Part shown: piece by piece, positions 1,740 through 19,214 of the stretch
Numbering within the stretch: position 1 is the first letter of the stretch
Layout of the letters: every line of letters starts with the position of its first letter
IMG/VR virus record: IMGVR_UViG_3300025941_000513
Span: 1 to 20,993 of that record
Direction: 5' to 3' (one strand)
Length of the DNA: 20,993 nt
Origin: a virus
Position numbers and translations under genes: made by a program
Notes under the pieces: model-generated
Databases searched by the model: none
What the model was told of the DNA's origin: nothing
Seen by the model: only the letters and a program-made list of their open reading frames with translations

Positions 1740-1843
1740 TTCGAGAGTTCATTCGTTTCGTCGGTTGGCAGAATATCGCCCTTGTGGTGATGGCTGTCGG
1801 CGTGGGCATCTTCATCGCCTGCAAATACATGGTGGCTGCATGA
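1736..1843 (+). CDS. 35-residue single-TM miniprotein
   Basis: This short ORF begins at an ATG overlapping the upstream stop (ATGA, 1736-1739) and ends in a TGA that overlaps the next ATG (1840-1843), so it fits exactly between two coupled genes. It encodes 35 residues with a basic N-terminus (MIREFIRF) and one clear hydrophobic helix (IALVVMAVGVGIFIACKYMV). Its function is unknown. The case for it rests on the perfect ATGA couplings at both ends and on the fact that it fills what would otherwise be a 100-nt gap in a gap-free block. Confidence 0.6.
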   Translation: MIREFIRFVGWQNIALVVMAVGVGIFIACKYMVAA

Positions 1844-4274: not shown

Positions 4275-4609
4275 TGTGGCGCCCGCTGTGTCTTAAAGCC
4301 GGGGATGAACTGATCCCGTTCGATCATGTGAAGCGCATCAACCTCGCCAATATCGAGAACAGCGAGGTTGAGATCATCACGGTCGAGGGCGAAAGTTTCG
4401 TGGCGCGCGGCTTTGACGCCGTGGAAGCCGTGTGGGCCTTCAAACCCAGCGCGGTAGAGGGACGCCGCCTGAAGTGGAAGAAGGGCTCGTGGGCCTTCCA
4501 CAACGTCGTGGCGCACCCTCTCATGCAGGTTCTTGCGTGGCTGGGCTTCACGCATCTCGCGATCCGTCTCCACGACGCCACAACTCCGGTGCCTCGCGGT
4601 TTCCGATGA
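4274..4609 (+). CDS. hypothetical protein with a W-x-x-H-N-V-V-A-H-P C-terminal motif
   Basis: This 111-residue protein is coupled to both neighbours (TGATG upstream, ATGA downstream). Residues 1-60 look like an all-beta domain (alternating hydrophobics, EVEIITVEGESFVARGF). Residues about 72-105 contain GSWAFHNVVAHPLMQVLAWL and RLHDATTPVP. Proteins with a W-x-x-H-N-x-x-A-H-P core followed by R-x-H-D-x-T occur as small phage hypotheticals, and I do not know a function for them. The histidines and aspartate could be catalytic or metal-binding, which is inference. Confidence 0.65.
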   Translation: MWRPLCLKAGDELIPFDHVKRINLANIENSEVEIITVEGESFVARGFDAVEAVWAFKPSAVEGRRLKWKKGSWAFHNVVAHPLMQVLAWLGFTHLAIRLHDATTPVPRGFR

Positions 4610-4947
4610 CGAACAATCTGGGGATGGTTCGCGACATTTTTAACGCGAACGTGCTCTTCGAAGATGTTCAGGTGGAGTCGGGCAACGTCCGGCCGCCACT
4701 GGTGCTCTGGCTCGCCAAGCGATACCGCCGCTCGTCGAAAGAGAAGAGCAAGGGGCTGACCTACCCGCATTCCTTCCATATTGCGCCGGACCATCTCGGT
4801 TGGTGCTGCGAAAATCTGGTTGACGGTTTCAAAGTGGTTCGAGTGTTCTGGGTGGGCGGTGGCCGAAGGAGCTACCGTTACGGCCTGAAATTCGGCAGTG
4901 AGCGGGATATGGTCCTCTACAAGATGTTCCACGATCCGCCTCCCTGA
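4606..4947 (+). CDS. D-A-x-x-F-K-M family member (divergent), 113 aa
   Basis: The start is the ATG overlapping the upstream stop (ATGA, 4606-4609). The C-terminal part, RRSYRYGLKFGSERDMVLYKMFHDPPP, follows the family pattern: a hydrophobic strand, a short polar turn with D, then x-x-x-Y-K-M-F. Here alanine is replaced by methionine and phenylalanine by tyrosine. An upstream strand (WCCENLVDGFKVVRVFWVGG) fits the beta-rich architecture of its relatives. The N-terminus (NNLGMVRDIFNANVLFEDVQ) is not shared. Function is unknown. It ends the 1020-4947 block, and a new promoter follows. Confidence 0.65.
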   Translation: MTNNLGMVRDIFNANVLFEDVQVESGNVRPPLVLWLAKRYRRSSKEKSKGLTYPHSFHIAPDHLGWCCENLVDGFKVVRVFWVGGGRRSYRYGLKFGSERDMVLYKMFHDPPP

Positions 4948-6243: not shown

Positions 6244-6825
6244 ATGCGCAATTGGCATACCTTCGACCTGCGCCCCGAGCGCCGGAAAGACGTTTCCGCG
6301 ACCGATCAACTGCGCGAGCTTCATGACGAAGTGCTCGCGTGGGTGGCGACGAACAAGACGAAGACGATCAAAACCTATCTGTTGGGTTCTGGGAAGACCG
6401 GCGCCCAAACGTGGGAGTCGCTCGGTGACCGGGTGACCTTCGCCGTCATCCGAGTGAAGCTCCGCTCAACCCGAGATGCCACGCTGTTCAAGATGTTCTT
6501 CTCGGATCATGTGATCCAGAAATTCGTCTACGGTGTCGGCGTGGGGACCTACGATCCGGTCCTCATCTCGCTGGTTCGCCGGGCCATGCCGAAGATTATC
6601 GCAAGCGACATCTGCGGCGTGCAGCCGATGACTGGGCCGACGGCTGCAATCTATTCGATGCGTGTGCGTTACAAGGCTGCTACCAAGCGCGCAGCCAAAC
6701 ATGCCGCAGCGCGCCGGGCGGCCCGTCGGGCTAAACAGGCAGCCCAAAGAGAGGCCGATCAGAAAGCTGCGATCATGGGGCAACTTCTCGAAAACACACG
6801 GCTGGCACTTGACGCGCTGGTATAA
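6244..6825 (+). CDS. chimeric protein: D-A-x-x-F-K-M domain plus a gp23 (major capsid) signature fragment plus a basic helix
   Basis: This 193-residue protein has three parts. Residues 1-98 form the D-A-x-x-F-K-M family domain (NWHTFDLR at the start, RDATLFKMFFSDH at 77-89). Residues about 103-144 read VLISLVRRAMPKIIASDICG then VQPMTGPTAAIYSMR. That matches the conserved region of T4-type major capsid protein gp23 (V-R-R-A-I-P...D-I-C-G-V-Q-P-M...P-T-G), which is the stretch used for environmental gp23 primers. Residues 145-193 are an Ala/Arg/Lys-rich, probably helical tail. A whole capsid protein exceeds 400 residues, so only one segment is present. This is probably a recombination product. 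Whether it binds the capsid is unknown. It follows the Ntn-hydrolase gene by 5 nt. Confidence 0.78.
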   Translation: MRNWHTFDLRPERRKDVSATDQLRELHDEVLAWVATNKTKTIKTYLLGSGKTGAQTWESLGDRVTFAVIRVKLRSTRDATLFKMFFSDHVIQKFVYGVGVGTYDPVLISLVRRAMPKIIASDICGVQPMTGPTAAIYSMRVRYKAATKRAAKHAAARRAARRAKQAAQREADQKAAIMGQLLENTRLALDALV

Positions 6826-7111
6826 ATTCTACGTCGATGGTCCAGAAGACGCAGACAAGTTTTCTGTCTGGGTCGATGAGGTTGTTGACTGGTTGCTCGA
6901 ATATCCGAAGTTTCGCATCAAGGCGAAACCGAAGAAAGGCTACGGGGCTCCCGATATTTACGGGTTCAGTTCGGAGAAGACACTCTTCTTCATCTGCTTC
7001 AAAAGCCTTGCCGATGCCACCCTATTCAAAATGGCATACCACGATTGGATTGTTGACGATTTTTGTGCTAGAGGCATGGTCAAGATAGTTTACGAATATG
7101 ACTTCGATTGA
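6809..7111 (+). CDS. D-A-x-x-F-K-M family member with a probable TTG start
   Basis: The frame has no nearby ATG; the in-frame ATGs at 6662 and 6701 lie deep inside the upstream gene. I place the start at TTG 6809 because the product then begins M-T-R-W-Y-K-F. This lines up residue for residue with M-R-N-W-H-T-F of the neighbouring paralogue (W, aromatic/H and F at the same spacing). The 100-residue protein continues WVDEVVDWLLEYP and ends with LFFICFKSLADATLFKMAYH (family core) then DWIVDDFCARG. No good Shine-Dalgarno is seen, so translation would depend on coupling to the overlapping upstream gene (17 nt overlap). The two adjacent copies look like a tandem duplication, one of which later gained the gp23 segment. 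Confidence 0.62.
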   Translation: MTRWYKFYVDGPEDADKFSVWVDEVVDWLLEYPKFRIKAKPKKGYGAPDIYGFSSEKTLFFICFKSLADATLFKMAYHDWIVDDFCARGMVKIVYEYDFD

Positions 7112-8373: not shown

Positions 8374-8625
8374 ATGCGTGAGATTGTCATTGATATTCGT
8401 GGCCCGAACGGCACTGGCAAGACTACGATCCTTCAACTCATGCATAAAGTCCTCGAAGACTATGGCTTCGAAGTGAAAGTGACCGGCGAAGATTTGGAAG
8501 AAATGATCTATCAGCAGAATAGATTGACGCCGGAGGAAATCGACCAGCGGCATGATGCCGTTCGGAAACGAACCGAGGTGACGATACTTACGACGCCTAC
8601 CAGCCGACCTTTTCAACGCCGCTGA
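8374..8625 (+). CDS. small orphan P-loop NTPase-like protein, 83 aa
   Basis: It starts M-R-E-I-V-I-D-I-R then GPNGTGKTT (10-18), a clear Walker A, followed by a helix (ILQLMHKVLEDYGFEVKV). The acidic middle (TGEDLEEMIYQQ) is followed by R-T-E-V-T-I-L-T-T near the end. At 83 residues there is no room for a full kinase core. Small P-loop proteins of about this length, with a C-terminal V-x-I-x-T strand, recur in phages, so this may be a complete small family and not a fragment (inference). No Walker B is obvious. Its 3' end overlaps the convergent ART gene by 29 nt. Confidence 0.65.
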   Translation: MREIVIDIRGPNGTGKTTILQLMHKVLEDYGFEVKVTGEDLEEMIYQQNRLTPEEIDQRHDAVRKRTEVTILTTPTSRPFQRR

Positions 8626-9001
8626 TATAGCGGTTCACCTGAGTGATTTCCGACACGTCGATCCGCCATTCTGATTCGGCGTGGATCAGACCGGTGTCCG
8701 AAAACGGCTTCACGTTGAACTTCCGGGCCAGATCGTCCCCGTTGAACTCGATCACCACGCCACTGTCATCGCCATCACGCCGCGCGCCTTGCAGGGCGAA
8801 GCGCTGTGCTGTGTGCCAATCCGTGGTGAAAGAAATCGACTCTTCGTCGCGGTGATCGGAGGCGATCATGGTGTTGTCCGACTGGATCATTTCCCACGCG
8901 CTGAGGCTGGTGCCGTGATACAGCATATCGGGCACGGGCGGCCCTTCTCTCGGCCGCTCGGTCATTTCGACCATCAACATGAGTTCACGCATCGAGAGCA
9001 T
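8597..9001 (-). CDS. ADP-ribosyltransferase-like protein 1 (small, H...E-x-E type)
   Basis: The 134-residue protein has MLYHGTSLSAWEMI (26-39, H29), ESISFTTDWHTAQRFAL (54-70) and G-V-V-I-E-F-N (81-87). It ends with HAESEWRID, which provides E109-x-E111. The order Y-H-G, S-F-T, E-x-E is the layout of ART-fold enzymes, which transfer ADP-ribose from NAD+ to a protein or nucleic acid. Assignment is by motif only. The ATG at 9001 lies four bases after CTAAATA, as in the two other ART genes. An internal ATG at 8992 gives MRELMLMVE, similar to the neighbour's MREFINLLE. That N-terminus resembles a head-targeting peptide. The target is unknown. Confidence 0.65.
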   Translation of the reverse strand: MLSMRELMLMVEMTERPREGPPVPDMLYHGTSLSAWEMIQSDNTMIASDHRDEESISFTTDWHTAQRFALQGARRDGDDSGVVIEFNGDDLARKFNVKPFSDTGLIHAESEWRIDVSEITQVNRYISGVEKVGW

Positions 9002-9005
9002 GAAC

Positions 9006-9012
9006 TATTTAG
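9006..9012 (-). promoter_or_regulatory. late-promoter-like CTAAATA, 4 nt before the ATG at 9001
   Basis: The - strand reads CTAAATA-GTTC-ATG. CTAAATA is close to the T4 late promoter core TATAAATA. With T4 spacing, transcription would begin at or within the ATG, giving a leaderless message. No Shine-Dalgarno is present. The element lies in the 14-nt gap between two ART genes. Confidence 0.5.
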
Positions 9013-9015
9013 TGT

Positions 9016-10155
9016 TTAAGGCAGGACTTTAGCGGCGCGAATGCCCTTTTCTAGGGCGCCAACTTCGTCGTCGGTGACATCTTCGTCGTCTACTCGGAAG
9101 GAATGGACCGCGTCTTCGTCCCAGAGAACGTAGGCGTTGTGACGAATACCGCCACCCCCACGCGCTCCCGTGCCAGCCAGTCTCACACCGCCATCGTAAG
9201 CGTAGCCGACATAGCCCAGCTTCTTCAAATCATCCATGAGATTCATTTGCTTCTCACGGCTATGCTGGAAGGCATGGTAGCCGCTGTGCGTGCCGTTGAA
9301 AATGAAGTCGAGCGACGGGTTCTCGCCCTTGCCGCCTTCCCAACGGTCGGTCCACGCATAGCGGGCGCCGCGCTCGCGGTAGCCATGGATGAACTGGTCA
9401 AACGTCAAACCGGTATCCTCGTCGCCGTTGTTGCCCTTCGGGTTGTAGGCGCGAAGGTCCCATTGCCCGTCCGGGTCGTTCGAGAAGTGGGCGCGGGTGA
9501 ACGCATCCTTGATGAACGGGATGACATTGTCTGGCAGCGGCCGTTCGGCGTGAAGGCATTTCGCCAGATAGGAAGTCGGAACTTCGAAGCGAGCTACGGC
9601 CGCCTGCCGAACCTTGTTCGTGAAAACGTATTCTCCGGTGGTCAGCTTGGTGATCCGAAGATCGGGACGCATCCGTTGGAACTTGGATTTCGCACGCGCC
9701 ATGGCGTCGCGGATCATCTTGCTCCGCTCGACTTGGAAGCCGTTCTGAATCTCATCCTGAATGCGATCTCGTTCGGCTCTGGCTGCCTCGTGATCGCCCG
9801 ACCAGTCGATCTCGCCGGACAGCCTGTAATATTTTTGCTGCCACATATTTTTCAGATCGGTGAGCCGATCTTCAAACTTCGCGTCGGTGTTTATCAGCTT
9901 GCGTAGAAACGCCGCCGTGAGATCGCGCGGTGTGAGAGCCTCATTGTCCGGCCGGAAGGCAATCTCGGTCGAACCTTTGACGGTGTAGTCCTTGGCCACA
10001 TCCGGGCTGTCGGTCAGATAGATACCGACGCCCAGAAGAGCCCCTTCATCGGTTTTCGCGATCTGAAATCGGTCAATCTTGGAATTGTCGCCGCGATACA
10101 GTGTGACCGTGGCATCGGTCGCGGCTCGTTCCAGCAGATTGATGAATTCGCGCAT
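9016..10155 (-). CDS. ADP-ribosyltransferase-like protein 2 (379 aa)
   Basis: After MREFINLLERAATDATVT comes LYRGDNSKIDRFQ (19-31, R21), then GALLGVGIYLTDSPDVAKDY (38-57). This Y-R-G plus G-x-G-I-Y-L-T-x-x-x-x-x-A-x-x-Y pattern is typical of ART-fold proteins. The middle (about 70-290) is charged and helical. The C-terminus has LKKLGYVGYAYDGG, a Gly-rich loop, and HNAYVLWDEDAVHSFRV, a closing strand like that of large ART domains. The catalytic glutamate is not obvious, so activity is uncertain. The first nine residues fit an (I/L)-x-E processing peptide of the T4 Alt type. The gene has its own CTAAATA element and a 14-nt gap to the next ART gene. Confidence 0.62.
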   Translation of the reverse strand: MREFINLLERAATDATVTLYRGDNSKIDRFQIAKTDEGALLGVGIYLTDSPDVAKDYTVKGSTEIAFRPDNEALTPRDLTAAFLRKLINTDAKFEDRLTDLKNMWQQKYYRLSGEIDWSGDHEAARAERDRIQDEIQNGFQVERSKMIRDAMARAKSKFQRMRPDLRITKLTTGEYVFTNKVRQAAVARFEVPTSYLAKCLHAERPLPDNVIPFIKDAFTRAHFSNDPDGQWDLRAYNPKGNNGDEDTGLTFDQFIHGYRERGARYAWTDRWEGGKGENPSLDFIFNGTHSGYHAFQHSREKQMNLMDDLKKLGYVGYAYDGGVRLAGTGARGGGGIRHNAYVLWDEDAVHSFRVDDEDVTDDEVGALEKGIRAAKVLP

Positions 10156-10159
10156 CCAC

Positions 10160-10166
10160 TATTTAG
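10160..10166 (-). promoter_or_regulatory. late-promoter-like CTAAATA, 4 nt before the ATG at 10155
   Basis: The - strand reads CTAAATA-GTGG-ATG, the same motif and spacing as at 9006-9012 and 13709-13715. No Shine-Dalgarno precedes the ATG. It lies in the 17-nt gap after the 10173-10436 gene. Confidence 0.5.
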
Positions 10167-10172
10167 GATGGC

Positions 10173-10436
10173 TCACAGCCAGTAGAGCTTGAAAAAGGTC
10201 GCGTCTTTTTCGCTGATGAACCACATGGTCACAACGTGGCCCAAACCACCGAGCCAGTAGCAGCTAACCCCGTATGGGCGCCGCAAATTGTCGTGACACC
10301 AGCGTTTGACTTCGGCGTCGAGCTTGACAAACGGATTCGGGCCATCGCCAGAGTGAATGGTGTAACGAACCTTGTCTCCGTGGAGCGTAACCGTCGTGGC
10401 TTTTTTGCGGGAAAGCAATTCGCAAACCCTACGCAT
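10173..10436 (-). CDS. D-A-x-x-F-K-L family member, 87 aa
   Basis: The ATG at 10436 follows the arginyl-tRNA synthetase stop by 3 nt. The protein has a basic start (MRRVCELLSRKKATTVTLHG), VKRWCHDNLRR, then GVSCYWLGGLGHVVTMWFIS and the closing EKDATFFKLYWL. The end D-A-T-F-F-K-L matches D-A-T-L-F-K-M of the genes at 6244 and 6809. It is thus a - strand copy of the dispersed family. Function unknown. A TCTAAATA inside the upstream gene (10558-10565) could serve it as a late promoter, with low confidence. Confidence 0.68.
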   Translation of the reverse strand: MRRVCELLSRKKATTVTLHGDKVRYTIHSGDGPNPFVKLDAEVKRWCHDNLRRPYGVSCYWLGGLGHVVTMWFISEKDATFFKLYWL

Positions 10437-10439
10437 TTT

Positions 10440-12017
10440 TCACATCCGATCAGGAATTTCGATCCCGAGCAGCCCCAAGCTGCACTCCAATTGTTCGAGA
10501 ACGAGAGTTGCCAACGCCACCCGAGACGGGTTTTCCGCGATCTGGGTGTTGGCATAATATTTAGAGAACGTTTGCGCCAAATCATAGGTGTGATCGGCGA
10601 TTTCTTTTGGCGACAGCCGCCGCACGGCGGCGTTTACGGCCTGCGAAAAACCGAACACCAGTTTGAAGGCAAGCGCCCGCTCTTGCTCCGTTTCGAGCTT
10701 GATGTCGCCCGGCTCCACAGACTTGGCGAGGATAGATTTGATCCGCACCGCTTGATAGAGCAGGTAGGGGCCGGTCTTGCCCTCGAAGCTGAGGAACTTG
10801 TCCAGATCGAAGGCATACGAACCCGTCCGAGGGTTCTGAAGGTCCGCAAATTTCAGGGCGGCCATGGCCACCACCGTCGCGGATGCTTCGTTTTTCTCGG
10901 CCGCCTTGGCGATGGCCTCCTGAATCAGGTCATGCAGCTTCGGCACACCACCGGCCCGCGTCTTCAGCGGCTTGCCGTTGGTGTCGTTCACCGTGCCGAA
11001 CCAGATGTGTTCCAATTCCATGTCGTCTGCGAGCTTGACCTTTTTGGCCGTCTCGAAAACTTGTTGGAAGTGAAGCTGCTGCCGTTCGTCAGTGACGTAG
11101 ATGATCTTGTCCGGCGCAAACTTCCGCCGGTCGAGGATGGTGGCGAGATCGGTCGTGGCGTAGAGCGCCGCGCCGTCCGACTTCCGCAGGATCAGCGGCG
11201 CTTCCGTGGACAGCCGCACGATCAAGGCACCGTTGTCCTCTTCGGCGATGCCGTCGAACAGCGTCATCATCGGCTCGACGAGGCTTTGCACGTCGCTCTC
11301 GCCCTTCATCATCGTGAAGTTGACATCGAGCGCCTTAAGCTCCCGCTCGACCGTGGCCATGCTTACGGCCACCATCTTCCGCCACCGCTTCAAAAGCTCT
11401 TCGTCGCCCTGCTGAAGCAGTTGCGTAAATTTCTGCGCCTTGAGCTTGAAAGCCTCATCGGTCTTCGCCCGAGCCGCAGCCTGCGGGTAGGTCTCTTCGA
11501 GCAGTTCGATGGTGTAATCGTGCAGCGGTGTGCCTTCCAAGGCAACCAGCAAGAGACCCATTTGGAGCCCCCAGTCGCCAAGGTGGATATCGGACAGCAC
11601 CTCGTAGCCCGCGAACCGCAAAATCCGTTGCAGGCTGTCACCAATCACCAGCGACCGCATGTGGCCGACGTGCATCGGCTTGGCGACATTCGGGCCACCA
11701 AAGTCCAGCACGATCCGCCCGGAAAATTCTATGCCGTGATCGCCACCCAGCAGGACTTCGAGAATCTCGGCGCCGACCGTCATGTTGATGTAGCCCGGCC
11801 CCGCCACCTCGAACTTGATGCCCGGATGGTTGATCCGCGCGATCACCCGTTCGGCCAACGCACGCGGGTTCACCTTAGCGGTCTTGGCAGCGAGGAAAGC
11901 GCCGTTGCATTGGAAATCAGCAAGGTCCGGCCGCTCGGAGGGGGAGACCACTGCCAGCGCAGCATCTAGCCCTTCGTCGGTGAACGCTTTAGCGAGAATT
12001 TGCGAGAGGATTTCCAT
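10440..12017 (-). CDS. argS: arginyl-tRNA synthetase
   Basis: This 525-residue class I aminoacyl-tRNA synthetase couples arginine to tRNA(Arg) using ATP. The N-terminal additional domain holds VAGPGYINMTV. Then comes the catalytic core with DFGGPNVAKPMHVGHMRSLV, where HVGH is the HIGH motif and the preceding N-x-A-K-P is typical of ArgRS. Next are GDWGLQMGLL and a degenerate KMSKS region (GKPLKTRAGG), as is usual in many ArgRS. The C-terminal anticodon-binding domain has FEGKTGPYLLYQAVRIKSIL and ends in ALATLVLEQLECSLGLLGIEIPDRM. It appears full length, though shorter than E. coli ArgRS (577 aa). Phage-encoded ArgRS is uncommon. It could maintain Arg charging late in infection or support phage tRNAs elsewhere (inference). 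Confidence 0.93.
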   Translation of the reverse strand: MEILSQILAKAFTDEGLDAALAVVSPSERPDLADFQCNGAFLAAKTAKVNPRALAERVIARINHPGIKFEVAGPGYINMTVGAEILEVLLGGDHGIEFSGRIVLDFGGPNVAKPMHVGHMRSLVIGDSLQRILRFAGYEVLSDIHLGDWGLQMGLLLVALEGTPLHDYTIELLEETYPQAAARAKTDEAFKLKAQKFTQLLQQGDEELLKRWRKMVAVSMATVERELKALDVNFTMMKGESDVQSLVEPMMTLFDGIAEEDNGALIVRLSTEAPLILRKSDGAALYATTDLATILDRRKFAPDKIIYVTDERQQLHFQQVFETAKKVKLADDMELEHIWFGTVNDTNGKPLKTRAGGVPKLHDLIQEAIAKAAEKNEASATVVAMAALKFADLQNPRTGSYAFDLDKFLSFEGKTGPYLLYQAVRIKSILAKSVEPGDIKLETEQERALAFKLVFGFSQAVNAAVRRLSPKEIADHTYDLAQTFSKYYANTQIAENPSRVALATLVLEQLECSLGLLGIEIPDRM

Positions 12018-12085
12018 ACTGCCCAGCTTACTCGGAAACTAGATTCGGTCAAGGAAAGTCGGATAGCCGACATGCCTTTGCCACA

Positions 12086-12310
12086 TTATTTCTGGGTGTC
12101 CGAAACATCGCCGTCGGCCACCCGCGCCCACTTGACGCGCTCGGATTCCTTCCAGCGTTCGGAACCCACGGGCATCTCTTCCGCCGTGGTCGGCTCGTCG
12201 GCCGCATAGTCCCAAACGTGTTCGACCTTGGTGACCTTGCCGGTCACGGGGTCGATGCTGCTGGCGGTGAGCCCACCAAACATTTTCGCCAGTCGGCGCA
12301 GGCCAGCCAT
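12086..12310 (-). CDS. hypothetical protein, 74 aa
   Basis: The start codon shares one base with the stop of the upstream gene (TGATG, 12312-12308). The product is basic then acidic: MAGLRRLAKMFGGLTASSID, VTGKVTKVEHVWDYAADEPT, and a charged tail (ERWKESERVKWARVADGDVS). It is soluble with no recognised family. It lies 68 nt upstream of the synthetase start. Confidence 0.55.
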   Translation of the reverse strand: MAGLRRLAKMFGGLTASSIDPVTGKVTKVEHVWDYAADEPTTAEEMPVGSERWKESERVKWARVADGDVSDTQK

Positions 12311-12963
12311 CAGCTATCCTCCCCCAGTGCAGCGAGGACGGCTCCGATAGCTCGGCGCCGACCCTCGGTGATCGGCTTCCCCACGAATTCAGGCTCACGC
12401 ACGGTTTTGAACCAATGCTGGTGAGTTGTGTGATAGGTGTTGAACGCCAACGAGTAACGCTTTTCCAAGATCATGTTGTCGATCTTGGCGCGCAGGTTCG
12501 GGTTGTCGTTCCAGAACCGTTCGTCGTGATCGTCATCCATATGACCGAGCAGACGTTTGGTGTCGGTCGGGATGACGACAGATAGAGCCTCTAAGGCGGC
12601 CACCAGCGCGGCCATTTCGTCGCAGGCCAGTGTGATGGTCGCGGCCGGGTTACCGCCCTCAGCGGCCCGGATTTGGGCCTTGCCGTTGGCTTTAGGAGTG
12701 ACCGTGACCCGGTCGCCCCAAATCGGGCCATCGTTGAGGGTTTGGCCGTCGAAGGACGCCACCGCGCGATCCTTCAACGCTTGGAGAAAATCTTCGGCGC
12801 GATCCGGCGAGAAACCCGTCTTGGCGAAATTCTTCCGACTGCGGATCGCGATTTCAAAGTCGTGACTCGCCCCTCCGATGCGCACCGTGATACCGGTTGA
12901 CTCCGTCAGGGCAATAGAGAACCCGGTGCGATAATCTTCGTCGAAGAAAACGGCTTCAGGCAT
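12310..12963 (-). CDS. hypothetical protein, 217 aa
   Basis: I take the ATG at 12963, which overlaps the stop of the upstream gene by 8 nt, not the earlier in-frame ATG at 13023 that lies well inside it. The protein starts MPEAVFFDEDYRTGFSIALT and continues with beta-rich stretches (GITVRIGGASHDFEIAIRSR). A middle segment (ATITLACDEMAALVAALEAL) and DDDHDERFWNDNPNLRAKID follow. The end, TEGRRRAIGAVLAALGEDS, is helical. A conserved-looking segment, LAFNTYHTTHQHWFKTVREP, has several histidines. No family is recognised. Confidence 0.62.
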   Translation of the reverse strand: MPEAVFFDEDYRTGFSIALTESTGITVRIGGASHDFEIAIRSRKNFAKTGFSPDRAEDFLQALKDRAVASFDGQTLNDGPIWGDRVTVTPKANGKAQIRAAEGGNPAATITLACDEMAALVAALEALSVVIPTDTKRLLGHMDDDHDERFWNDNPNLRAKIDNMILEKRYSLAFNTYHTTHQHWFKTVREPEFVGKPITEGRRRAIGAVLAALGEDS

Positions 12964-13516
12964 GGGAAGCCTGACCGGCGAGACGCTCGATCCAGTCGGC
13001 GGCGGCGACCTGATCTTCCACATCGGCCTTGCCGGTGGTCAGGAGCTTGTGCAGGAGATCGTCCTTCACCGGCTTCGCGCTGAAGGCTTCGAACTCGCGG
13101 ATTTCAAACTTGGCCAGATCGTAGGCGTATTGGCTACCGATGACGTAGACCCGCTGGCCGCTCTCGATGCCACGGATCATGCACGGGCGGAATTCCTGAC
13201 GGCCCTGACGGCTGGTCGAGCCATCATATTCCGACCAGTCGCCTTTGATCGGGCGGGCCAGAACGTAGCAGTGACCGGCGAAGGGAAGGTCGCGAATGGC
13301 ATTGTTGTAGTTCGGGGTCACCGAGACCGTGCGGGCCTCGAAGCGACGCGGAGTGTAGGTGTATTCCTGATCGAGTTCGACCATGCCGCGCTTCTGAAGC
13401 GAGACCGCCGTGCGATATTCGCTTTCGTCGCATTCGGCCCAGACGCCGGGCTCTTCGTCCAGCGAACGAAGGAATTCGATCTGCGGCTTCGTGAGACGGT
13501 CGGTCTGGGTGGTCAT
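12956..13516 (-). CDS. hypothetical protein, 186 aa, with a possible N-terminal winged-helix segment
   Basis: The gene starts at 13516, preceded by a GAGG and a TATAAAAA element. Residues 8-50 (LTKPQIEFLRSLDEEP through TAVSLQKRGMVELDQEY) look like a small winged helix-turn-helix of the kind found in phage hypotheticals. Residues 60-130 form a beta-rich segment (RRFEARTVSVTPNYN, AGHCYVLARPIKGDWSEYDG). The rest is helical (KDDLLHKLLTTGKADVEDQV). A regulatory or DNA-binding role is possible but not shown. It heads the - strand cluster 13516-12086. Confidence 0.6.
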   Translation of the reverse strand: MTTQTDRLTKPQIEFLRSLDEEPGVWAECDESEYRTAVSLQKRGMVELDQEYTYTPRRFEARTVSVTPNYNNAIRDLPFAGHCYVLARPIKGDWSEYDGSTSRQGRQEFRPCMIRGIESGQRVYVIGSQYAYDLAKFEIREFEAFSAKPVKDDLLHKLLTTGKADVEDQVAAADWIERLAGQASHA

Positions 13517-13531
13517 GGGTGCCTCGTGCTG

Positions 13532-13539
13532 TTTTTATA
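13532..13539 (-). promoter_or_regulatory. late-promoter-like TATAAAAA upstream of 13516
   Basis: The - strand octamer TATAAAAA differs by one base from the T4 late core TATAAATA. It lies about 16 nt before the ATG, leaving room for a short leader with GAGG. A sigma70 -35 at the right distance is not evident. Confidence 0.35.
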
Positions 13540-13574
13540 GCTTGAGTGTCTCATGATTTTGGAACTGGTCAACG

Positions 13575-13603
13575 AAAAAGGCCCCCGCTTTCGCAGGAGC
13601 CTT
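13575..13603 (-). terminator. strong rho-independent terminator (- strand)
   Basis: On the - strand an 11-bp stem (AAGGCTCCTGC pairing with GCGGGGGCCTT, including two G-U pairs) closes a GAAA tetraloop and is followed by TTTTT. On the + strand the same stem would carry two C-A mismatches and only a short T tract, so the - orientation is preferred. It would stop read-through from the 19961-14455 operon. Confidence 0.75.
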
Positions 13604-13681
13604 TCTGGCGATCTAAGACTACCCGGACGAACCGGCTGAATGGGGCCGGGGCGATGGATCGACCAGTGATGTCTACCAACC

Positions 13682-13742
13682 TCGAAAATTTTGGTCAACC
13701 AGATTTCTCTAAATACGAGATGCGTTGGACCGAAATTTTCGA
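13682..13742 (+). repeat. 15-bp inverted repeat framing the ART 3 promoter and start codon
   Basis: Arms at 13682-13696 and 13728-13742 can pair over 15 bp with a single G-U. The 31-nt loop (13697-13727) contains both CTAAATA and the ATG at 13720. A transcript entering from upstream would fold around the start, while one beginning at the late-type element would lack the first arm. Confidence 0.65.
13709..13715 (+). promoter_or_regulatory. late-promoter-like CTAAATA, 4 nt before the ATG at 13720
   Basis: The + strand reads CTAAATA-CGAG-ATG, the third instance of the same motif at the same spacing before an ART-like gene. The tetramer CGAG overlaps an ACGAGAT heptamer also seen near two other promoters. 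Confidence 0.5.
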
Positions 13743-14397
13743 AGCCGTGGACTACGATGCTTTCAGGGCGTTCGGTATCGAACCCAAGGACGCAGATCGT
13801 CTGGCTCGCTATCCGCTATCGCCGGAAGACCTTGCCTTCTATGTGAAGCTGGGAAAGGGCGTTGACGGAGCCATCGAGCGGCTCGAAAGCGAACGAGTGA
13901 GAGGTGTTCTGCGGCGAGCGCAAGAACGGGGCATCGACAAGGTCAAGGCTGCCCTGCCCGCTCTTAGGGCTTCCAACAGACCAATTAGTTACGAGACGGC
14001 ATGTGCGCTGATTGCCGACGACGATGATCTTATCAGCTTCATCAGCGGTTGGACGTGGAACGCCGACCACGGGGAAGAGCACCCGGAACTGGCGGCGCGG
14101 TTCCTGTCGATCCTGAAGCGGATCAGCCCGCCGGTGCGCAAGCACCTATATCGCGGTCAGCAACCCTTCAGTCGGGAGCGCAGCAACAAACGCGGGTTCC
14201 ACTCGTGGTCCGCCAACTACAAAACTGCAAAAGATTTTGCGGAACACACCGGCACGGTCTTGGAGATCGACCGGCCGATCCAAGGCGTCGCGTTGGATGA
14301 CGTGCTGAAATGGCGAATGCGCCTACGAGACGAGAGCCACTACAGCGGCCCGCAGGCCGAATGGTTCGTTGTCGATCAACCCGAACAATACGCATGA
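13720..14397 (+). CDS. ADP-ribosyltransferase-like protein 3 (225 aa, R-S-E type with Q-x-E)
   Basis: I place the start at 13720 because of the shared CTAAATA-N4-ATG arrangement; in-frame ATGs at 13546 and 13669 are alternatives. The protein begins MRWTEIFEAVDYDAF, a T4 Alt-like leader with I-F-E before A. A helical region runs from about 20 to 135. The C-terminal ART domain shows HLYRGQQPF (142-150, R145), GFHSWSANYKTAKDFAEHTG (159-178, S-W-S at 162-164), V-L-E-I-D and GPQAEWFV (210-217), which supplies Q212-x-E214. R, S-x-S and (E/Q)-x-E are the R-S-E catalytic set. A Q at the first position is found in C3-type enzymes. The gene stands alone on the + strand between - strand blocks. Confidence 0.72.
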   Translation: MRWTEIFEAVDYDAFRAFGIEPKDADRLARYPLSPEDLAFYVKLGKGVDGAIERLESERVRGVLRRAQERGIDKVKAALPALRASNRPISYETACALIADDDDLISFISGWTWNADHGEEHPELAARFLSILKRISPPVRKHLYRGQQPFSRERSNKRGFHSWSANYKTAKDFAEHTGTVLEIDRPIQGVALDDVLKWRMRLRDESHYSGPQAEWFVVDQPEQYA

Positions 14398-14454: not shown

Positions 14455-15420
14455 TCAGAGATCGTGGAACATCGCCGTGATCTCGCGTTCCAGTTCGTGG
14501 AACTGCGGGAGCTTGGTGACATCCGGTCTCCATGCGAGGCCGCGCTCCATCAGATCGAACGTCTTGACAATCCGGGCGCCCGGAATGGGCTGACCCTTCT
14601 CGTCGCGTTCGCGACCCATCACGAGGATGGTGTCCGCCACCGCGATGGCGCTCTGAATGTCGTGCGTCGTCAGAATGATCGAGTTCATTTCATCTTCCGC
14701 CGCGAGCGACGTAATCATGTCCTGAACTTTTTCCTTCATCAGGATGTCCAAGCCCGAGAAGGGTTCGTCCATCAGCAGGAGATGGCCGCAGGCCACCATC
14801 TGCTGGATGATCGCCACACGCTGCCGCTGGCCGCCCGAAAGCTGATGCGGATACATGTCGCGCCGTTGGTCCAACTCGAAGCGTTCGAGCATCGAGATGG
14901 TCTTGTCGGCCGCATCCTTCGCATCGAGCTTCAGCTTCGCAGCCATCAGCACGTTGTCGAAGACGGTCAGGTGGGCGAACAGGGGATAGTCCTGAGCCAC
15001 GACACCGACCTTACCGGCGCGAGTGGCTTCCTTGCCTTCGCCAATCATCACCGAACCGGAGTTTGGGGTCTTCAGGCCGGAGATGCAACGAAACAGTTGG
15101 GTCTTGCCCATCCCAGAGGGAGCGAGCAGGGCGTCAACCTGACCTTGCGTGTAGCCGGGCCGGATGATGTTGCGGATCGTAAAGTCCACGTCCCGAAGGA
15201 TCGGCGAATCGTAGTGGACATTCAGCTTGCTGACTTCGAGAAGAACCTCGTTCAGCGAGTAGCTGTAGTCACCGGGAATCGGCGCCTTCTTCGGGGTCGG
15301 GAACACGGTGACTGCTGCTTCAGCGGCGGGAGCCGCAGGAACCACAGCAGGAGCCGCCGGGGCCGGTGCTGCCGCAGGAGCGGCGAAGCCCGGCGCGAAA
15401 GGAATGAATTTCTCGCCCAT
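14455..15420 (-). CDS. ABC transporter ATPase with a Pro/Ala-rich N-terminal extension
   Basis: The 321-residue protein is a NitT/TauT-like ABC ATPase. Walker A is A-P-S-G-M-G-K-T (100-107), with the usual first Gly replaced by Ala. The Q-loop is Q143, the signature LSGGQ spans 194-198, Walker B is LLLMDEP (214-220) followed by FSGLD, and the H-loop His is 253. All catalytic residues are present, so it should hydrolyse ATP. Residues 10-45 are a Pro/Ala-rich linker, which is unusual in import ATPases. The gene starts 1 nt after the permease stop and is probably translationally coupled to it. The pair forms the cytoplasmic engine of the operon. Confidence 0.88.
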   Translation of the reverse strand: MGEKFIPFAPGFAAPAAAPAPAAPAVVPAAPAAEAAVTVFPTPKKAPIPGDYSYSLNEVLLEVSKLNVHYDSPILRDVDFTIRNIIRPGYTQGQVDALLAPSGMGKTQLFRCISGLKTPNSGSVMIGEGKEATRAGKVGVVAQDYPLFAHLTVFDNVLMAAKLKLDAKDAADKTISMLERFELDQRRDMYPHQLSGGQRQRVAIIQQMVACGHLLLMDEPFSGLDILMKEKVQDMITSLAAEDEMNSIILTTHDIQSAIAVADTILVMGRERDEKGQPIPGARIVKTFDLMERGLAWRPDVTKLPQFHELEREITAMFHDL

Positions 15421-15421
15421 G

Positions 15422-16222
15422 TTAGCGGCCCTTCACGGTGTAGGGGCAAGTCAGCGCCTTGCCGTATTTCAGAGCCCGGTCTTGCGCCATGCCAACCATG
15501 AAGATCAGCAGTTGGATCGCGAAGATCGACGAATACTGGCCGCTCCGTTGGAGGGTCACGAGCAGGAGCCCGATGCCACCTTCCGAGCGGGAAATCGCCT
15601 CGACGCTGGTCAGCATCATCCACGCGATGGCGGCGTTCTTGCGGACGCTTTCGAAGGCTTCCGAGAGAGTGCCCCGGATGACCACCTCACGCAGGACGCC
15701 CCACTTGGAGAGGCCGAGCGTGCGAGCATGGTCGAACCGTGCTTCGGGAATGTCGTCAACCACTTGAAGCATGTCCCCGACGAAGAAGGTCATCATCGAG
15801 AAGGCCAGAATGCCGACCTTCAAGGCATGGCCGCCCAAGACCATCATGAAGATGACCGTGATACCAGCCAGCGACAGGAAGCGAAACGAGCCAATCAAGA
15901 TGGCCGGGGGACGAAACGCCGCAGCAGTGGCGGCATAGACGATGCCGAGGCCAATAACCGTCGCGAGGAAGATCGCTTCGAGGCTGACGGTCAGGCTGGT
16001 GATGAGTTGGTAGATAGCGCCACCACCCATTTCCTTGCCGAACGCGGCACCGACGGATTTGGGGCTGGGGAGAAGGGGAACGATCTGGTCCCGAACCTGC
16101 GCGCCATTGGTGAGGATCACCCAAGTCGCAGCAGTGAGGATCAGCCATCCGGCGACGAGCGTAAGGGTGACCTGTCGGTCAGTCTTCTCGTTGGGGATGA
16201 AGGCAGACAGGAACTTAGACAT
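15422..16222 (-). CDS. ABC transporter permease (NitT/TauT-like)
   Basis: The 266-residue integral membrane protein has about six hydrophobic segments, including LTLVAGWLILTAATWVILTN, AIFLATVIGLGIVYAATAAA, ITVIFMMVLGGHALKVGILA and FAIQLLIFMVGMAQ. The cytoplasmic EAA-type coupling loop is visible as ARTLGLSKWGVLREVVIRGT, the place where the ATPase docks. It resembles permeases of nitrate/taurine/sulfonate importers. The loop RSEGGIGLLLV is also typical. GGAG lies five bases before the ATG at 16222. A strong hairpin separates it from the preceding binding-protein gene and may reduce its expression relative to that gene. The substrate is unknown. Confidence 0.86.
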   Translation of the reverse strand: MSKFLSAFIPNEKTDRQVTLTLVAGWLILTAATWVILTNGAQVRDQIVPLLPSPKSVGAAFGKEMGGGAIYQLITSLTVSLEAIFLATVIGLGIVYAATAAAFRPPAILIGSFRFLSLAGITVIFMMVLGGHALKVGILAFSMMTFFVGDMLQVVDDIPEARFDHARTLGLSKWGVLREVVIRGTLSEAFESVRKNAAIAWMMLTSVEAISRSEGGIGLLLVTLQRSGQYSSIFAIQLLIFMVGMAQDRALKYGKALTCPYTVKGR

Positions 16223-16231
16223 GGGAACTCC

Positions 16232-16274
16232 GAAAAGAGAAAGAGGATCGAGGGGCGGGCGAACCCGCCCCTCG
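16232..16274 (-). terminator. strong intercistronic hairpin with T-rich tail (- strand)
   Basis: An 11-bp perfect stem (16249-16259 and 16264-16274) has a TTCG loop when read on the - strand and is followed by the T/C-rich tract TCCTCTTTCTCTTTT. It lies between the binding protein and permease genes. It may be an attenuator or mRNA-stabilising hairpin that sets subunit ratios. Confidence 0.65.
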
Positions 16275-16288
16275 TCTCGTGCGTGGGC

Positions 16289-18061
16289 TTAGTTGCCCTG
16301 CGCGATCTCCACCCGGCGGTTCTTCGAACGACCGGCTTCGGTGGTGTTGTCGGCCACCGGGTTCGACGAACCCAGACCTTGGACTTCCATCCGTTCGTTG
16401 GGGAACGTCTTGGGAGCCAGCGCGAAGAGCGCATCCGCCACCGCTTGGGCGCGAGCCCGCGACAGGGTCAGGTTGGCCGCGTCGTTGCCGGTGTTGTCGG
16501 TGTAGCCCGTGATCCGAACCCGCAGCCCGGTCATGCCGACCGAGTTGGCGATCTGGTTCAGGGTGCGATACCCGGCCGGGGTCAGCTTGTTCGAGCCCGT
16601 GGCGAACTCGATGCTGTAGTCCTTCGCCGAGACCTGCTGGGTGATCGACTTGGAGGCCGTGAAGGTCGAGGCCACCGAAGTCTGCACACCGGCCAGCGCC
16701 GCCGTGACGAACGAGGTGTCAACGACATCCTCGAACTTCGGATAGGACGGCACGTCCTTCGGGTAGAAGGCGTGCGCGTAGTCGCCGAAGGTCGTGTAGA
16801 CGCCCTTGTAGACGTTCAGCGCGCCCGGCGTCAGGCCGAGGTAGTCGCGGACTTCCGCCAGCGTGACGGCGCGGGTGCCGCCCAGACGAACGGTGTTGCC
16901 CTGCGTGTCGGTGTAGTCGTAGCCGGTGAACGCCTTGGTCCAGAAGTCAGCAGTCGCTTCTTCGCCACCGGCGGTGCCGAAGACGGCCGCTTGGGTCTTG
17001 CCCAGCTTGGTCACGCCGTCGCCCGAGCGAATGTCGAAAGCGGCGCGGTCGAAGGCCCGCAGAAGGCCGACGATGTAGGCGCGGTGCGAGTCGGCCCACG
17101 ACTTCGTCGTGATGATGACCGCAGGCATCTGCTGGTTGTAGTCGTGGGTGGACGCCCAAGTCGTCAGGCCGGGCTTCTTGGTGACCACGAAGCGGTCGCC
17201 GGGGAACCACGTCAGCACGCCGTCCACGGTCACGTCACGGACTTCGCCGGTCAGCTTGCCGTCCTTCATGACCTTGCGCTTTTCGTGGTAGCCGTTGGCA
17301 TACTTGTCATCGGCGTCCGTGAACGACTGGGTGTCCACGGTGTTGATGGCGTCCACGTCGTAGGTGTCTTGGCGAGCGTTGATGCGGATGTTGTTGTCAC
17401 CCGCCCACTTCACCATGGTGTTCCAGTCGCCGTCGTAGGGGACGCCAGCGATCAGGCTGCCCTTGGCGGACTGGGGGTTGCCGTTCAGCGGCTTGCCCAT
17501 CGCCTTGTCTTCCCCGTAGGAGAAGCCGGTGATGCCGACCACGACGACCTGCTGGCCGAGGGCGCCCATGCGCTCTTGGAGCGACTGAGCGTAGGCGGCG
17601 TAGGCGTCGCCCATCATGATCGTGAAGGCCGCGCCTTGCGGGTTGGCTTCGCCGTTCTTCACGCCTTGGGCGAACTTCACCAGTTCGTCCTTCTGGACGC
17701 CGTAGTCGTCCTGACGCTCGATCTTCAAGCAGCCACCGGCATACTTCTTCACGAGGGAGTCGTCGGACGTGGTCACGCCGCCGTTGGCCAGCGTGATCGG
17801 CGCCGCGCCGTTCCACGCGATGGCGAGCATCCGGGGACAGCCGGTCATGCCGCTGGCCGGTTGCGCGGCCAGTTCATAGCTCGCGACGGCGGCGGTCACG
17901 TTGCCCGTCAGGGTGTTGTTGGTCTTGGTCGGCGCGAAAGCCGCGAGGCCCGGCGGCGGCTTGATGACGCCGGTGCTGATGAGGGTCTTGACGCCGAAGA
18001 GCGCCCCGCCCGCGAGGATGGCGATGGCCGCCACCTTGTATCGAGTCTTGAGTCCAGCCAT
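16289..18061 (-). CDS. membrane-anchored periplasmic binding protein fused to an OmpA-type peptidoglycan-binding domain
   Basis: The 590-residue protein starts with a basic residue pair and a hydrophobic anchor (KVAAIAILAGGALFGVKTLI, about 9-28), with no signal-peptidase or lipobox site that I can see. A long binding-protein-like region follows, with DYGVQKDELVKFAQGVKNGE, GALGQQVVVVGITGFSYGED, MPAVIITTKSWADSHRAYIV and LLRAFDRAAFDIR, as in NitT/TauT solute-binding proteins. The C-terminal 115 residues are an OmpA-like domain: FATGSNKLTPAGYRTLNQIA, ITGYTDNTGNDAANLTLSRA and the end SKNRRVEIAQGN, with the TDNTG and NRRVEI elements that bind diaminopimelate. I infer a periplasmic protein tethered to both inner membrane and cell wall. 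AAAAGGGA precedes the ATG. Confidence 0.83.
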   Translation of the reverse strand: MAGLKTRYKVAAIAILAGGALFGVKTLISTGVIKPPPGLAAFAPTKTNNTLTGNVTAAVASYELAAQPASGMTGCPRMLAIAWNGAAPITLANGGVTTSDDSLVKKYAGGCLKIERQDDYGVQKDELVKFAQGVKNGEANPQGAAFTIMMGDAYAAYAQSLQERMGALGQQVVVVGITGFSYGEDKAMGKPLNGNPQSAKGSLIAGVPYDGDWNTMVKWAGDNNIRINARQDTYDVDAINTVDTQSFTDADDKYANGYHEKRKVMKDGKLTGEVRDVTVDGVLTWFPGDRFVVTKKPGLTTWASTHDYNQQMPAVIITTKSWADSHRAYIVGLLRAFDRAAFDIRSGDGVTKLGKTQAAVFGTAGGEEATADFWTKAFTGYDYTDTQGNTVRLGGTRAVTLAEVRDYLGLTPGALNVYKGVYTTFGDYAHAFYPKDVPSYPKFEDVVDTSFVTAALAGVQTSVASTFTASKSITQQVSAKDYSIEFATGSNKLTPAGYRTLNQIANSVGMTGLRVRITGYTDNTGNDAANLTLSRARAQAVADALFALAPKTFPNERMEVQGLGSSNPVADNTTEAGRSKNRRVEIAQGN

Positions 18062-18131
18062 TGGATGGTCCCTTTTCTGGTCTGGTCGTTGTTGATGGGG
18101 TTACGCTTACTGGTATTCGGTAGTGGTAGTG

Positions 18132-18155
18132 GGGTGCGGCGGTTAGGCCGCACCC
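18132..18155 (-). repeat. 9-bp intercistronic hairpin
   Basis: GGGTGCGGC and GCCGCACCC (18132-18140 and 18147-18155) enclose a 6-nt loop. It lies in the 100-nt gap between the two-TM protein gene and the binding-protein gene. There is no T tract, so mRNA stabilisation or pausing is more likely than termination. Confidence 0.6.
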
Positions 18156-18161
18156 GTAGTC

Positions 18162-19187
18162 CTAGTTGTCGATCAGGCCACCGAAGCCACCGGCTGCGGT
18201 CTTCTGACCGGGGATGGCCAGCGGAGCCACGACGCTGGCGTGGACCGGGATCGCGACCATTTGGTTGGCGCGGTCTTCGGCTTGCCACTTTTCCAGCAAG
18301 TCTTGGCTGTAGGTCGCCTTGTCCAAGTCGATGTTGTCGAGCAGGGGCTTGGCGGCGTCGTTCAGGTTCTCCAAGCGGCCGATGGCGGTGGCATACTTGG
18401 TCTGCACGAGCATCTGGGCTTCCTTGGCAAGTTCGTTCTTGCCTTGGTTGGCGAGGATGCCGCGCGCGGCGCGCTCCATCTTCGACATGTTGTTGGCGGC
18501 GTCCCACGTCGCTTGCGTGTTCTGGATGTCCACGCCCAGCTTGAAGATCAGGTCGTCGGCGGCCTGTTGCAGGCGGACGATGATCCCGCGAACCGGCTCA
18601 AGGCGGGCGCGCATGGCGGCGAAGCCGTCGGCCGTCTTGTTGGCTTCACCGGCCTGATAGCCCAGCCGTTCGAAGTTGACGGTGTCGCCCTTGGAGTTGG
18701 CGGCCTTGGCGCGCTTCTCGGCTTCCAGCGCTTGGGCGCGGAACTGATCTTCGTTCTGCTTGAAGACCGAAATCTGGCCGTCGAACTGCGCGAACTGCTC
18801 GTCGTAGGTCTTCTTCTTCTCTTCGACGGCCGCGAGGCTGTCCTTGAGGGGCGACATCGGATCGACGTTCAGCAGTTCGAGCGTCATGTTGTGGATGAAG
18901 CTCGAATAGGCTTGGGCGAACAGCTTGTTGATCCGGCCCTTGGGGGACAGGATTTCCAGCAGCAGCCAGCCGACCACGACCAGCGCGCCGACCGTCAGCG
19001 CGAGATAGATCATGTTCTCGGTGAGGGTCTGAAGGAGCAGGAAGGCGTCGCTGATCGTCGGGACGACGTGCTTCACGACAATGGACCCGCCGAACACCAG
19101 CGCCGCGATGATCGCGCCGTTGATGCCCCAGCGGATATATTTTTCCTGCGGCGGATGCCACTCGTTCGGGGAGTTGGTGTCAGACAT
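18162..19187 (-). CDS. two-TM membrane protein with a long coiled coil
   Basis: The 341-residue protein has a short polar N-terminus (MSDTNSPNEWHPPQEKYIRW), TM1 at about 23-42 (INGAIIAALVFGGSIVVK) and TM2 at about 58-78 (NMIYLALTVGALVVVGWLLL). A long helical region of roughly 220 residues follows with coiled-coil character: LKDSLAAVEEKKKTYDEQFA, AQALEAEKRAKAANS and EKWQAEDRANQM. The tail is Ala/Gly/Pro-rich. The arrangement is loosely PspA-like but it is TM-anchored and longer. I recognise no family with certainty. Its place in the operon suggests it bridges the inner membrane to the ABC/OmpA complex. Confidence 0.75.
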   Translation of the reverse strand: MSDTNSPNEWHPPQEKYIRWGINGAIIAALVFGGSIVVKHVVPTISDAFLLLQTLTENMIYLALTVGALVVVGWLLLEILSPKGRINKLFAQAYSSFIHNMTLELLNVDPMSPLKDSLAAVEEKKKTYDEQFAQFDGQISVFKQNEDQFRAQALEAEKRAKAANSKGDTVNFERLGYQAGEANKTADGFAAMRARLEPVRGIIVRLQQAADDLIFKLGVDIQNTQATWDAANNMSKMERAARGILANQGKNELAKEAQMLVQTKYATAIGRLENLNDAAKPLLDNIDLDKATYSQDLLEKWQAEDRANQMVAIPVHASVVAPLAIPGQKTAAGGFGGLIDN

Positions 19188-19214
19188 GTTGGTCAGGTCC
19201 AGTCTTGATCGGGG

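Follow-up and report, generated by a model that had tools for sequence, protein, structure and literature searches.

A CTAAATA late-promoter-like element set four or five bases before start codons in uncultured T4-superfamily jumbo phages, with probable near-leaderless late genes

Background

The late element of phage T4 lies at -13 to -6 and the late motif of phage Aeh1, CTAAATA, begins at -12, according to excerpts of PMC1524935, and for phage CBB the excerpted text of PMC5259590 gives ATAAATA late-like sites with a gp55-like factor, and no gp33 or gp45. The T4 proteins IPII and IPIII carry an N-terminal capsid-targeting sequence (CTS) of about ten residues, and gp21 cleaves small N-terminal peptides from IPI-III and Alt (excerpts of PMC9958956); ADP-ribosyltransferases (ARTs) of jumbo phages are treated in a comparative study (PMC7824862, in part). 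Leaders of 26-491 nucleotides (nt) are given for the giant phage AR9 in a source whose excerpts describe phage transcripts as often leaderless (PMC5312081), which means that leaderless messages are not in themselves a novelty among phages. Late elements of the CTAAATA type, capsid targeting and phage ARTs are already known separately. Here we describe a viral record of 20,993 bases, IMGVR_UViG_3300025941_000513 (the window, meaning the whole stretch of DNA analysed), in which three genes, A, B and C, each start four bases downstream of CTAAATA, together with large uncultured relatives in which the same element precedes dozens of genes at a spacing of four or five bases. We consider it probable that these are gp55-type late promoters with a collapsed leader, which would yield messages with leaders of 0-2 nt, many of them for effectors loaded into the capsid and injected.

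Results

An earlier note on this DNA had pointed to an identical CTAAATA-N4-ATG at three genes that lack a Shine-Dalgarno sequence (SD), two of them adjacent and each keeping its own element, and these observations hold throughout. The pattern CTAAATANNNNATG matches exactly at 9012-8999 (-), 10166-10153 (-) and 13709-13722 (+), which are the only three CTAAATA-N4-ATG in the window, and it has no match in 100 dinucleotide-preserving shuffles of the window; CTAAATA by itself occurs four times against 0.21 expected. All three ATGs open an open reading frame (ORF), the SD test scores 0 for each gene, and the gap between genes B and A is 14 nt. The spacers (Table 1) and the sequences upstream differ among the three, so the match is not simply the product of recent gene duplication, and copying of the motif with a recently duplicated whole gene was rejected on the same grounds. 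Likeness among the three proteins, judged by eye and without mutual alignment, is limited to short ART motifs. The fourth CTAAATA is probably not part of the system.

The window record, itself a fragment, matches a 45.9-kilobase (kb) IMG/VR contig (G001), reversed, with 5 mismatches in 20,993. A search with gene C led to two large relatives, G002 (415 kb, 76% identity at C) and G003 (516 kb, 51%), and the major capsid protein of G003 places Sinorhizobium phage Phosso (78%) and Agrobacterium phage Atu_ph07 (67%) nearest among cultured phages. Viral contigs were also searched for the element followed by N4-ATG and an MRxxE-like protein start, which returned 70 stretches, compared with 16 when the element was reversed, and pointed to additional jumbo contigs. 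The core set for the gene-model counts below comprises six uncultured T4-superfamily jumbo-phage contigs (G002, G003, G004, G006, G012 and G013), five of them whole and G013 analysed over its first 260 kb only.

The frequency of CTAAATA-N4-ATG across a genome, which the earlier note proposed as a check, is not at chance level in G002, with 14 occurrences against 0 for the reversed pattern. CTAAATA is there the top enriched 7-mer at a spacing of 4-5 before ATG (28 of 67 copies, with about 0.34 expected per spacing), and in G003 the top two are ATAAATA (45 of 115) and CTAAATA (13 of 51). Counts of CTAAATA-N4/5-ATG against the reversed control are 30/0 in G002, 13/1 in G003, 64/0 in G004, 22/0 in G006, 35/0 in G012 and 27/1 in G013. 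Other permutations of CTAAATA average 0.12-0.62 per contig at this spacing, against 13-59 for CTAAATA itself; the highest of them reaches 17 (G012) and is usually TAAATAC, which overlaps the element. Among 21 large records these six are strongly above control, four are intermediate (G008 7/0, G020 8/1, G021 7/2 and W01 13/6) and the other 11 had 2 to 4, a count that is no census since 18 of the 21 were chosen for at least one motif-plus-MRxxE match. LR756500 (462 kb) shows no clear enrichment, with 2 against 3 and 13 against 6 for the control.

Genes were sorted by the distance of [AC]TAAATA from the start, into short-spaced (4-5 nt) and long-spaced (18-42 nt) classes, which hold 252 and 164 genes respectively, with 25-71 short-spaced genes per relative. 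An SD, counted when at least 4 nt long, precedes 9 of the 252 short-spaced and 106 of the 164 long-spaced genes (Fisher p 8.5e-45); gene models were greedy ORFs from no trained caller, and since starts of element-less genes were picked with an SD preference, and a spacing of 4-5 was preferred in choosing starts, short-spaced against long-spaced is the only fair SD comparison. A further 45 genes with the element elsewhere within 2-45 nt fall outside both classes (12 with an SD, 8 with the peptide described below). The major capsid gene of G004 is long-spaced (spacer 27) and has an SD, that of G003 lacks the element, and some other long-spaced genes have N-termini that we take to resemble tail sheath; the short-spaced set itself holds baseplate wedge, terminase and sheath matches. 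Because the long-spaced genes mostly have an SD of their own, the element is no general SD substitute, and behaves as a promoter-like sequence at variable distance from the start.

With the element at -12 to -6, a spacer of five bases would place +1 on the A of AUG. A pyrimidine precedes +1 at many transcription start sites, and in the spacer-5 class (116 genes) a pyrimidine precedes the start codon in 85%, a start-site-like step exactly at the T4 +1. The preferred short spacing varies by phage, with spacers of four and five in 11 and 44 genes of G003 and in 58 and 13 genes of G004; spacer-4 genes favour G at both bases preceding the start. No conserved -35-like region was found in the 40 nt upstream.

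The short spacing is retained between diverged phages. The six contigs yield 1091 reciprocal best pairs; both members are short-spaced in 91, where 1000 label shuffles give 20.9 on average and 35 at most, and spacing is identical in 53 of the 91. Orthologues of gene B in G002, G003, G006 and G012 are all short-spaced; the homologue of gene C in G003 differs at its N-terminus. CTAAATA- and ATAAATA-N4/5-ATG were also counted in T4, Aeh1, phiM12, phiM9, XacN1, SCTP-2, CBB, P-SSM2, Cr30, Phosso and Atu_ph07, and in 10 of these 11 cultured phages the short spacing is at or about the reversed control (over whole records, 1/0 and 0/0 in Phosso, 2/4 and 6/6 in Atu_ph07), so that it is not general to T4-like phages.

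The two closest cultured phages have the element further out. Over about 41 kb per phage, the 6-mer with the highest enrichment at 14-39 nt before ATGs is TAAATA in Phosso; in Atu_ph07 its enrichment is weaker. Five orthologues of short-spaced virion genes were compared in these phages, and three have NTAAATA with a spacer of 20-28 nt and an SD-like sequence. One gene that is short-spaced in G002, G003, G004, G012 and G013 has ATAAATA, a 27-nt spacer and GGGAG in Phosso, and GTAAATA, a 28-nt spacer and GAGG in Atu_ph07; the Phosso baseplate wedge gene has the element, a spacer of 20 and AGGAG. Both Atu_ph07 orthologues are virion structural proteins in the RefSeq annotation.

Short-spaced genes also share a protein start, commonly of the MRxxEI..E or MRxxINLLE type. 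A peptide with [LI]xE whose E falls at residues 8-14 opens 130 of the 252 short-spaced proteins, 18 of the 164 long-spaced and 221 of the 3194 element-less ones. If only G002 and G003 are counted, two contigs retrieved without the motif, the peptide opens 45 of 92 short-spaced and 7 of 77 long-spaced proteins. The match peaks at residues 8-10 (13.9, 17.1 and 7.9% against about 1%), with no such peak in long-spaced or other genes, and the commonest residues after it are A (30 of 130) and S (24 of 130). A stricter, hand-made CTS pattern points in the same direction (63 of 252, 4 of 164 and 66 of 3194). Each contig has 15-32 peptide genes behind a short-spaced element. T4 IPII and IPIII begin MKTYQEFIAE, then A.

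Family scans covered 126 of the 130 peptide-bearing proteins (alignment A2) and 114 of the 122 peptide-less short-spaced ones (alignment A3), the remainder being longer than 1000 residues or crossing the edge of a sequence segment. Only the peptide-bearing set was scanned against Pfam, where 12 families for 126 proteins leave most without annotation; the matches include ART-PolyVal (7), GNAT (up to 4), cell-wall hydrolase (2), Acb1 (1) and SAM lyase (1). For PHROGs we consider the first 25 of the 50 families listed for A2 and of the 230 for A3: within these, the peptide-bearing set has kinase-, endolysin- and RNA ligase-like members, and in the peptide-less set methyltransferases and homing endonucleases occur next to virion proteins such as baseplate wedge, terminase and tail sheath. 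A crude count finds ART-like motifs in 29 of the 252 short-spaced genes. A regulon of ART genes only was rejected, ARTs being one class in the short-spaced set.

A gp55-like factor (phrog_234) is present in 14 of the 21 large records, including G003, G004, G012 and G013 (the matches in the last lying outside the part analysed). Full gp55-, gp21- and gp23-like genes occur in G003, G004 and G012, and the gp21-type protease stands beside gp23 in three contigs; in G001, G002, G006 and the analysed part of G013, gp23 appears only as short pieces. One such piece, about 44 residues of a gp23-type major capsid protein at roughly 6511-6756, lies in a different protein context within the window ORF 6244-6825 (+); G002 holds a similar piece at 252134-252262, and further short capsid-protein pieces occur in G004, G006 and G012.

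The identity of genes A to C as ARTs, on which the earlier note had relied, stands to different degrees. For gene A it is well supported by predicted fold: the Pfam match (PF01885, E 6.6e-4) is below the cut-off, and the AlphaFold2 model (predicted local distance difference test, pLDDT, 82) has Tpt1 structures as its best Foldseek match (E 7e-6). Gene B is moderately supported as a putative ART by its sub-threshold Pfam match, a match found at E 0.01 in five of the six members of its alignment (A4), gene B included; its profile had only chance-level matches among PDB sequences. Gene C is a candidate by motif only: RGQ, FHSWS and QAE, which resemble an ART motif set of the R-S-E type, are invariant in three homologues (alignment A1), with no Pfam match, only chance-level matches in a PDB sequence search with the gene C profile, and a model of pLDDT 61 whose ART half is mostly below 50. 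The longest ORF at gene C begins upstream of the ATG, with a GTG at 13546.

Table 1. Features of the window connected with the CTAAATA element (coordinates on the 20,993-base stretch)
Feature	Coordinates	Strand	Description
Gene A	8597..9001	-	134 amino acids (aa), Tpt1/KptA-like ART fold (predicted); N-terminus MLSMRELMLMVE
Gene A, capsid-targeting-like N-terminal 12 residues	8966..9001	-	Putative; ends MVE (residues 10-12)
CTAAATA late-promoter-like element, gene A	9006..9012	-	Spacer GTTC 9002-9005; element and spacing same at G002 orthologue (G002 249654)
Gene B	9016..10155	-	379 aa, ART-PolyVal-like, LYRGD...GIYLTDS; PF18760 E 3e-4, below cut-off
Gene B, capsid-targeting-like peptide MREFINLLE	10129..10155	-	[LI]xE ends at residue 9; cleavage after E9 predicted from T4
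CTAAATA late-promoter-like element, gene B	10160..10166	-	Spacer GTGG 10156-10159
Fourth CTAAATA	10558..10564	-	Within arginyl-tRNA synthetase gene; ATG at spacing 2, other frame
CTAAATA late-promoter-like element, gene C	13709..13715	+	Spacer CGAG 13716-13719; not intact at G002 orthologue
Gene C	13720..14397	+	225 aa; ART-like motifs only: RGQ, FHSWS, QAE
Gene C, capsid-targeting-like peptide MRWTEIFE	13720..13743	+	[LI]xE ends at residue 8; cleavage after E8 predicted from T4

Other genes of the window were also noted. The arginyl-tRNA synthetase (10440-12017, -) shares 38% identity with a faecal phage record and 40% with a Chloroflexi metagenome-assembled genome (MAG). Four short ORFs, at 10173-10436 (-), 6662-7111 (+), 6244-6825 (+) and 4432-4947 (+), have in common, by eye, a DATLFK-like stretch and are perhaps a small paralogous family. 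A row of genes at 14455-19961 (-) comprises an ABC ATPase, a permease-like protein (below the Pfam cut-off), an OmpA-fused protein and two further proteins; for the OmpA-fused protein, phage records hold a single full-length relative, in LR756500 (30.8%). An ORF at 1765-3111 (+) combines DFP/CoaB-like and aldolase class II parts in a single frame.

Discussion

We propose that CTAAATA/ATAAATA is a late promoter element that would be recognised by host RNA polymerase together with a gp55-like sigma factor, and that before the three window genes and the short-spaced genes of each relative it has come to lie just 4-5 nt from the start codon. We infer promoter activity, and with it the position of 5' ends, from the element and its geometry: the message would start on the A of AUG at a spacer of five and within 1-2 nt of it at a spacer of four. 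With a leader of 0-2 nt, translation would have to start without an SD leader. Where the same element retains a leader, translation would be SD-dependent and the products would include bulk virion proteins; the collapsed leader would serve numerous further products, half of which bear a capsid-targeting-like tag. Packaging, cleavage and enzymatic activity we likewise infer, from T4: the tagged proteins would be made late, loaded into the prohead core, cut after (L/I)xE by a gp21-type protease and delivered into the next host, where they would act as takeover and counter-defence effectors, following the logic of T4 Alt, and the ART-like proteins of the window would be examples. It is possible, though we regard it as rather doubtful, that one element drives a two-track late programme, in which leader and SD serve bulk virion parts while leaderless messages serve capsid-loaded effectors and other virion parts; leaderless initiation might then be favoured or protected late, for example while SD-dependent initiation is altered, and the short 5' end might act as a compact cassette into which effectors are swapped.

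The peptide is the part of this proposal most open to another account. It is absent from 122 of the 252 short-spaced genes, and the set that bears it also has virion structural, tail and head-tail adaptor matches (among the matches listed), which would suit an incidental bias of short late proteins, the short-spaced genes being late and their products not capsid cargo. The sharp peak at residues 8-10, missing from long-spaced and other genes, speaks against this, as do the gp21-type protease next to gp23 in three contigs and the several functions that fit injected effectors, and we think such a bias unlikely.

A real late promoter could also contribute little, if translation came mainly from messages reading through from upstream. 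The arrangement of the genes allows this in part, since a same-strand gene ends no more than 100 nt upstream of 97 of the 252 short-spaced genes, and in the window gene A follows gene B by 14 nt. Only 14 of the 252, however, have another short-spaced gene immediately before them on their own strand at such a distance, as A has B in the window, and 134 have no same-strand upstream neighbour in the gene models. Almost none has the SD by which a long message would be translated, and the short spacing is kept in diverged orthologues; read-through as the main source of protein is therefore a reading to which we give little credence.

Less credible again is that the element is a -10-like box for a host sigma factor, the phage copying a host style of leaderless message. 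Leaderless genes with an adjacent -10 box are common in several bacterial phyla, and the arginyl-tRNA synthetase, whose best matches are 40% to assorted MAGs and 34% to Thalassospira, points to no clear host. TAAATA nevertheless misfits the TANNNT motif, the 40 nt upstream show no conserved -35 region, four of the six contigs encode gp55-like factors, and virion genes share the same box. A translational signal, substituting for the ribosome-binding site, or another RNA element with no promoter role would explain why the sequence takes the SD position at a fixed distance to AUG, but is the least plausible reading given that the element also stands 18-42 nt upstream of genes with their own SD, the G004 major capsid gene among them, that CTAAATA and ATAAATA are already known as late motifs of Aeh1 and CBB, and that three of the five Phosso/Atu_ph07 orthologues compared keep the element with a long leader.

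Several observations weigh against late promoters whose leader has collapsed. All three window genes have a spacer of four; in the class with that spacer (136 genes of the six contigs) +1 would fall on the U of AUG under T4 geometry, and G precedes the start in 54%; taken together these suggest a leader of 0, 1 or 2 nt, with 1-2 nt as likely as none. Long-spaced genes show no more than a slight rise of the pyrimidine-purine step at the T4 +1 (0.33, compared with 0.21-0.31 at other places from 9 to 21 bases). In G002 the orthologue of gene C lacks the exact motif (CTAAGAC-CCCA-GTG), and the N-terminus of gene A, ending MVE, does not pass the strict [LI]xE test. Among cultured phages, XacN1 has a small short-spacing excess (3/0 and 5/1), two of whose places recur at the same offset of 318,795, as if a single repeat had been counted twice; the other two of the five orthologues compared, both labelled DLEKI, fit less well and have ATAAATA 16 nt before an annotated TTG, with AAGGA, in Atu_ph07, and ATAAATA overlapping the annotated ATG, with AGGA upstream, in Phosso. 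Sampling and gene calling also lean one way, in that G004, G006, G012 and G013 were retrieved with a pattern containing the motif and MRxxE (G002 and G003 were not) and start choice favoured a spacing of 4-5. Finally, gp55 and gp21 were not found in G001, G002, G006 or the analysed part of G013, and a gp45-like clamp (phrog_223) was found in 0 of 4 records with a profile that matched no control either. The missing gp55-like gene in G001, G002 and G006 is a gap in the argument, even though G001 is a fragment and G002 may also be incomplete.

Set against the earlier note, the late-promoter reading has gained ground: the late motif of Aeh1 is identical, long-spaced genes with an SD share the element, and T4 geometry would leave a leader of 0-2 nt with no SD. 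The gp55-like factor it suggested looking for is present in G003, G004, G012 and G013 and was not found in G001, which holds the window, nor in G002 or G006. Its regulon of ART genes has given way to a set of dozens of genes per phage, many of them virion genes.

If the proposal is right, dozens of genes per phage would be expressed on leaderless messages that a dedicated late promoter produces; we found no programmed use of such messages on this scale for any T4-type phage in the open-access PMC literature, and these phages would offer a natural test bed for bacterial translation of such messages. In the same literature we found no account of leaderless late promoters of the CTAAATA-N4/5 type, nor of capsid targeting with ARTs in jumbo phages. 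The combined signature (late element, 4-5 nt, ATG, [LI]xE at residues 8-14) would allow putative injected effectors to be listed from uncultured giant phages; ARTs, acetyltransferases and an anti-CBASS protein would be on such a list.

Compared with described systems, gene A has the predicted fold of the Tpt1/KptA RNA 2'-phosphotransferases, and differs from them in its length of just 134 aa and in a Pfam match below the cut-off. Phosso and Atu_ph07 resemble the phages described here in having TAAATA elements before virion genes, in genes that are orthologous, and differ in the position of the element, which in three of the five orthologues compared lies 20-28 nt upstream and is accompanied by an SD-like sequence. 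The late promoters of T4 (TATAAATA; gp55, gp33, gp45) and the CTAAATA variant of Aeh1 have a motif like the [AC]TAAATA found here, likewise with no conserved -35 region, with placement before virion genes and with a gp55-like factor, here encoded in relatives; the distance of 4-5 nt to ATG in a large gene class sets the present element apart. T4 IPI-III and Alt offer the closest parallel to the tagged proteins, with an N-terminus of about ten residues that in IPII and IPIII ends IAE then A, with Alt itself an ART, and with a gp21-type protease that is also present in relatives of the window phage. The excerpted text of PMC9958956 names four such cargo genes in T4, against 15-32 per contig here, and T4 ipII, ipIII and alt retain a leader with an SD-like sequence, whereas the short-spaced genes would have dispensed with both.

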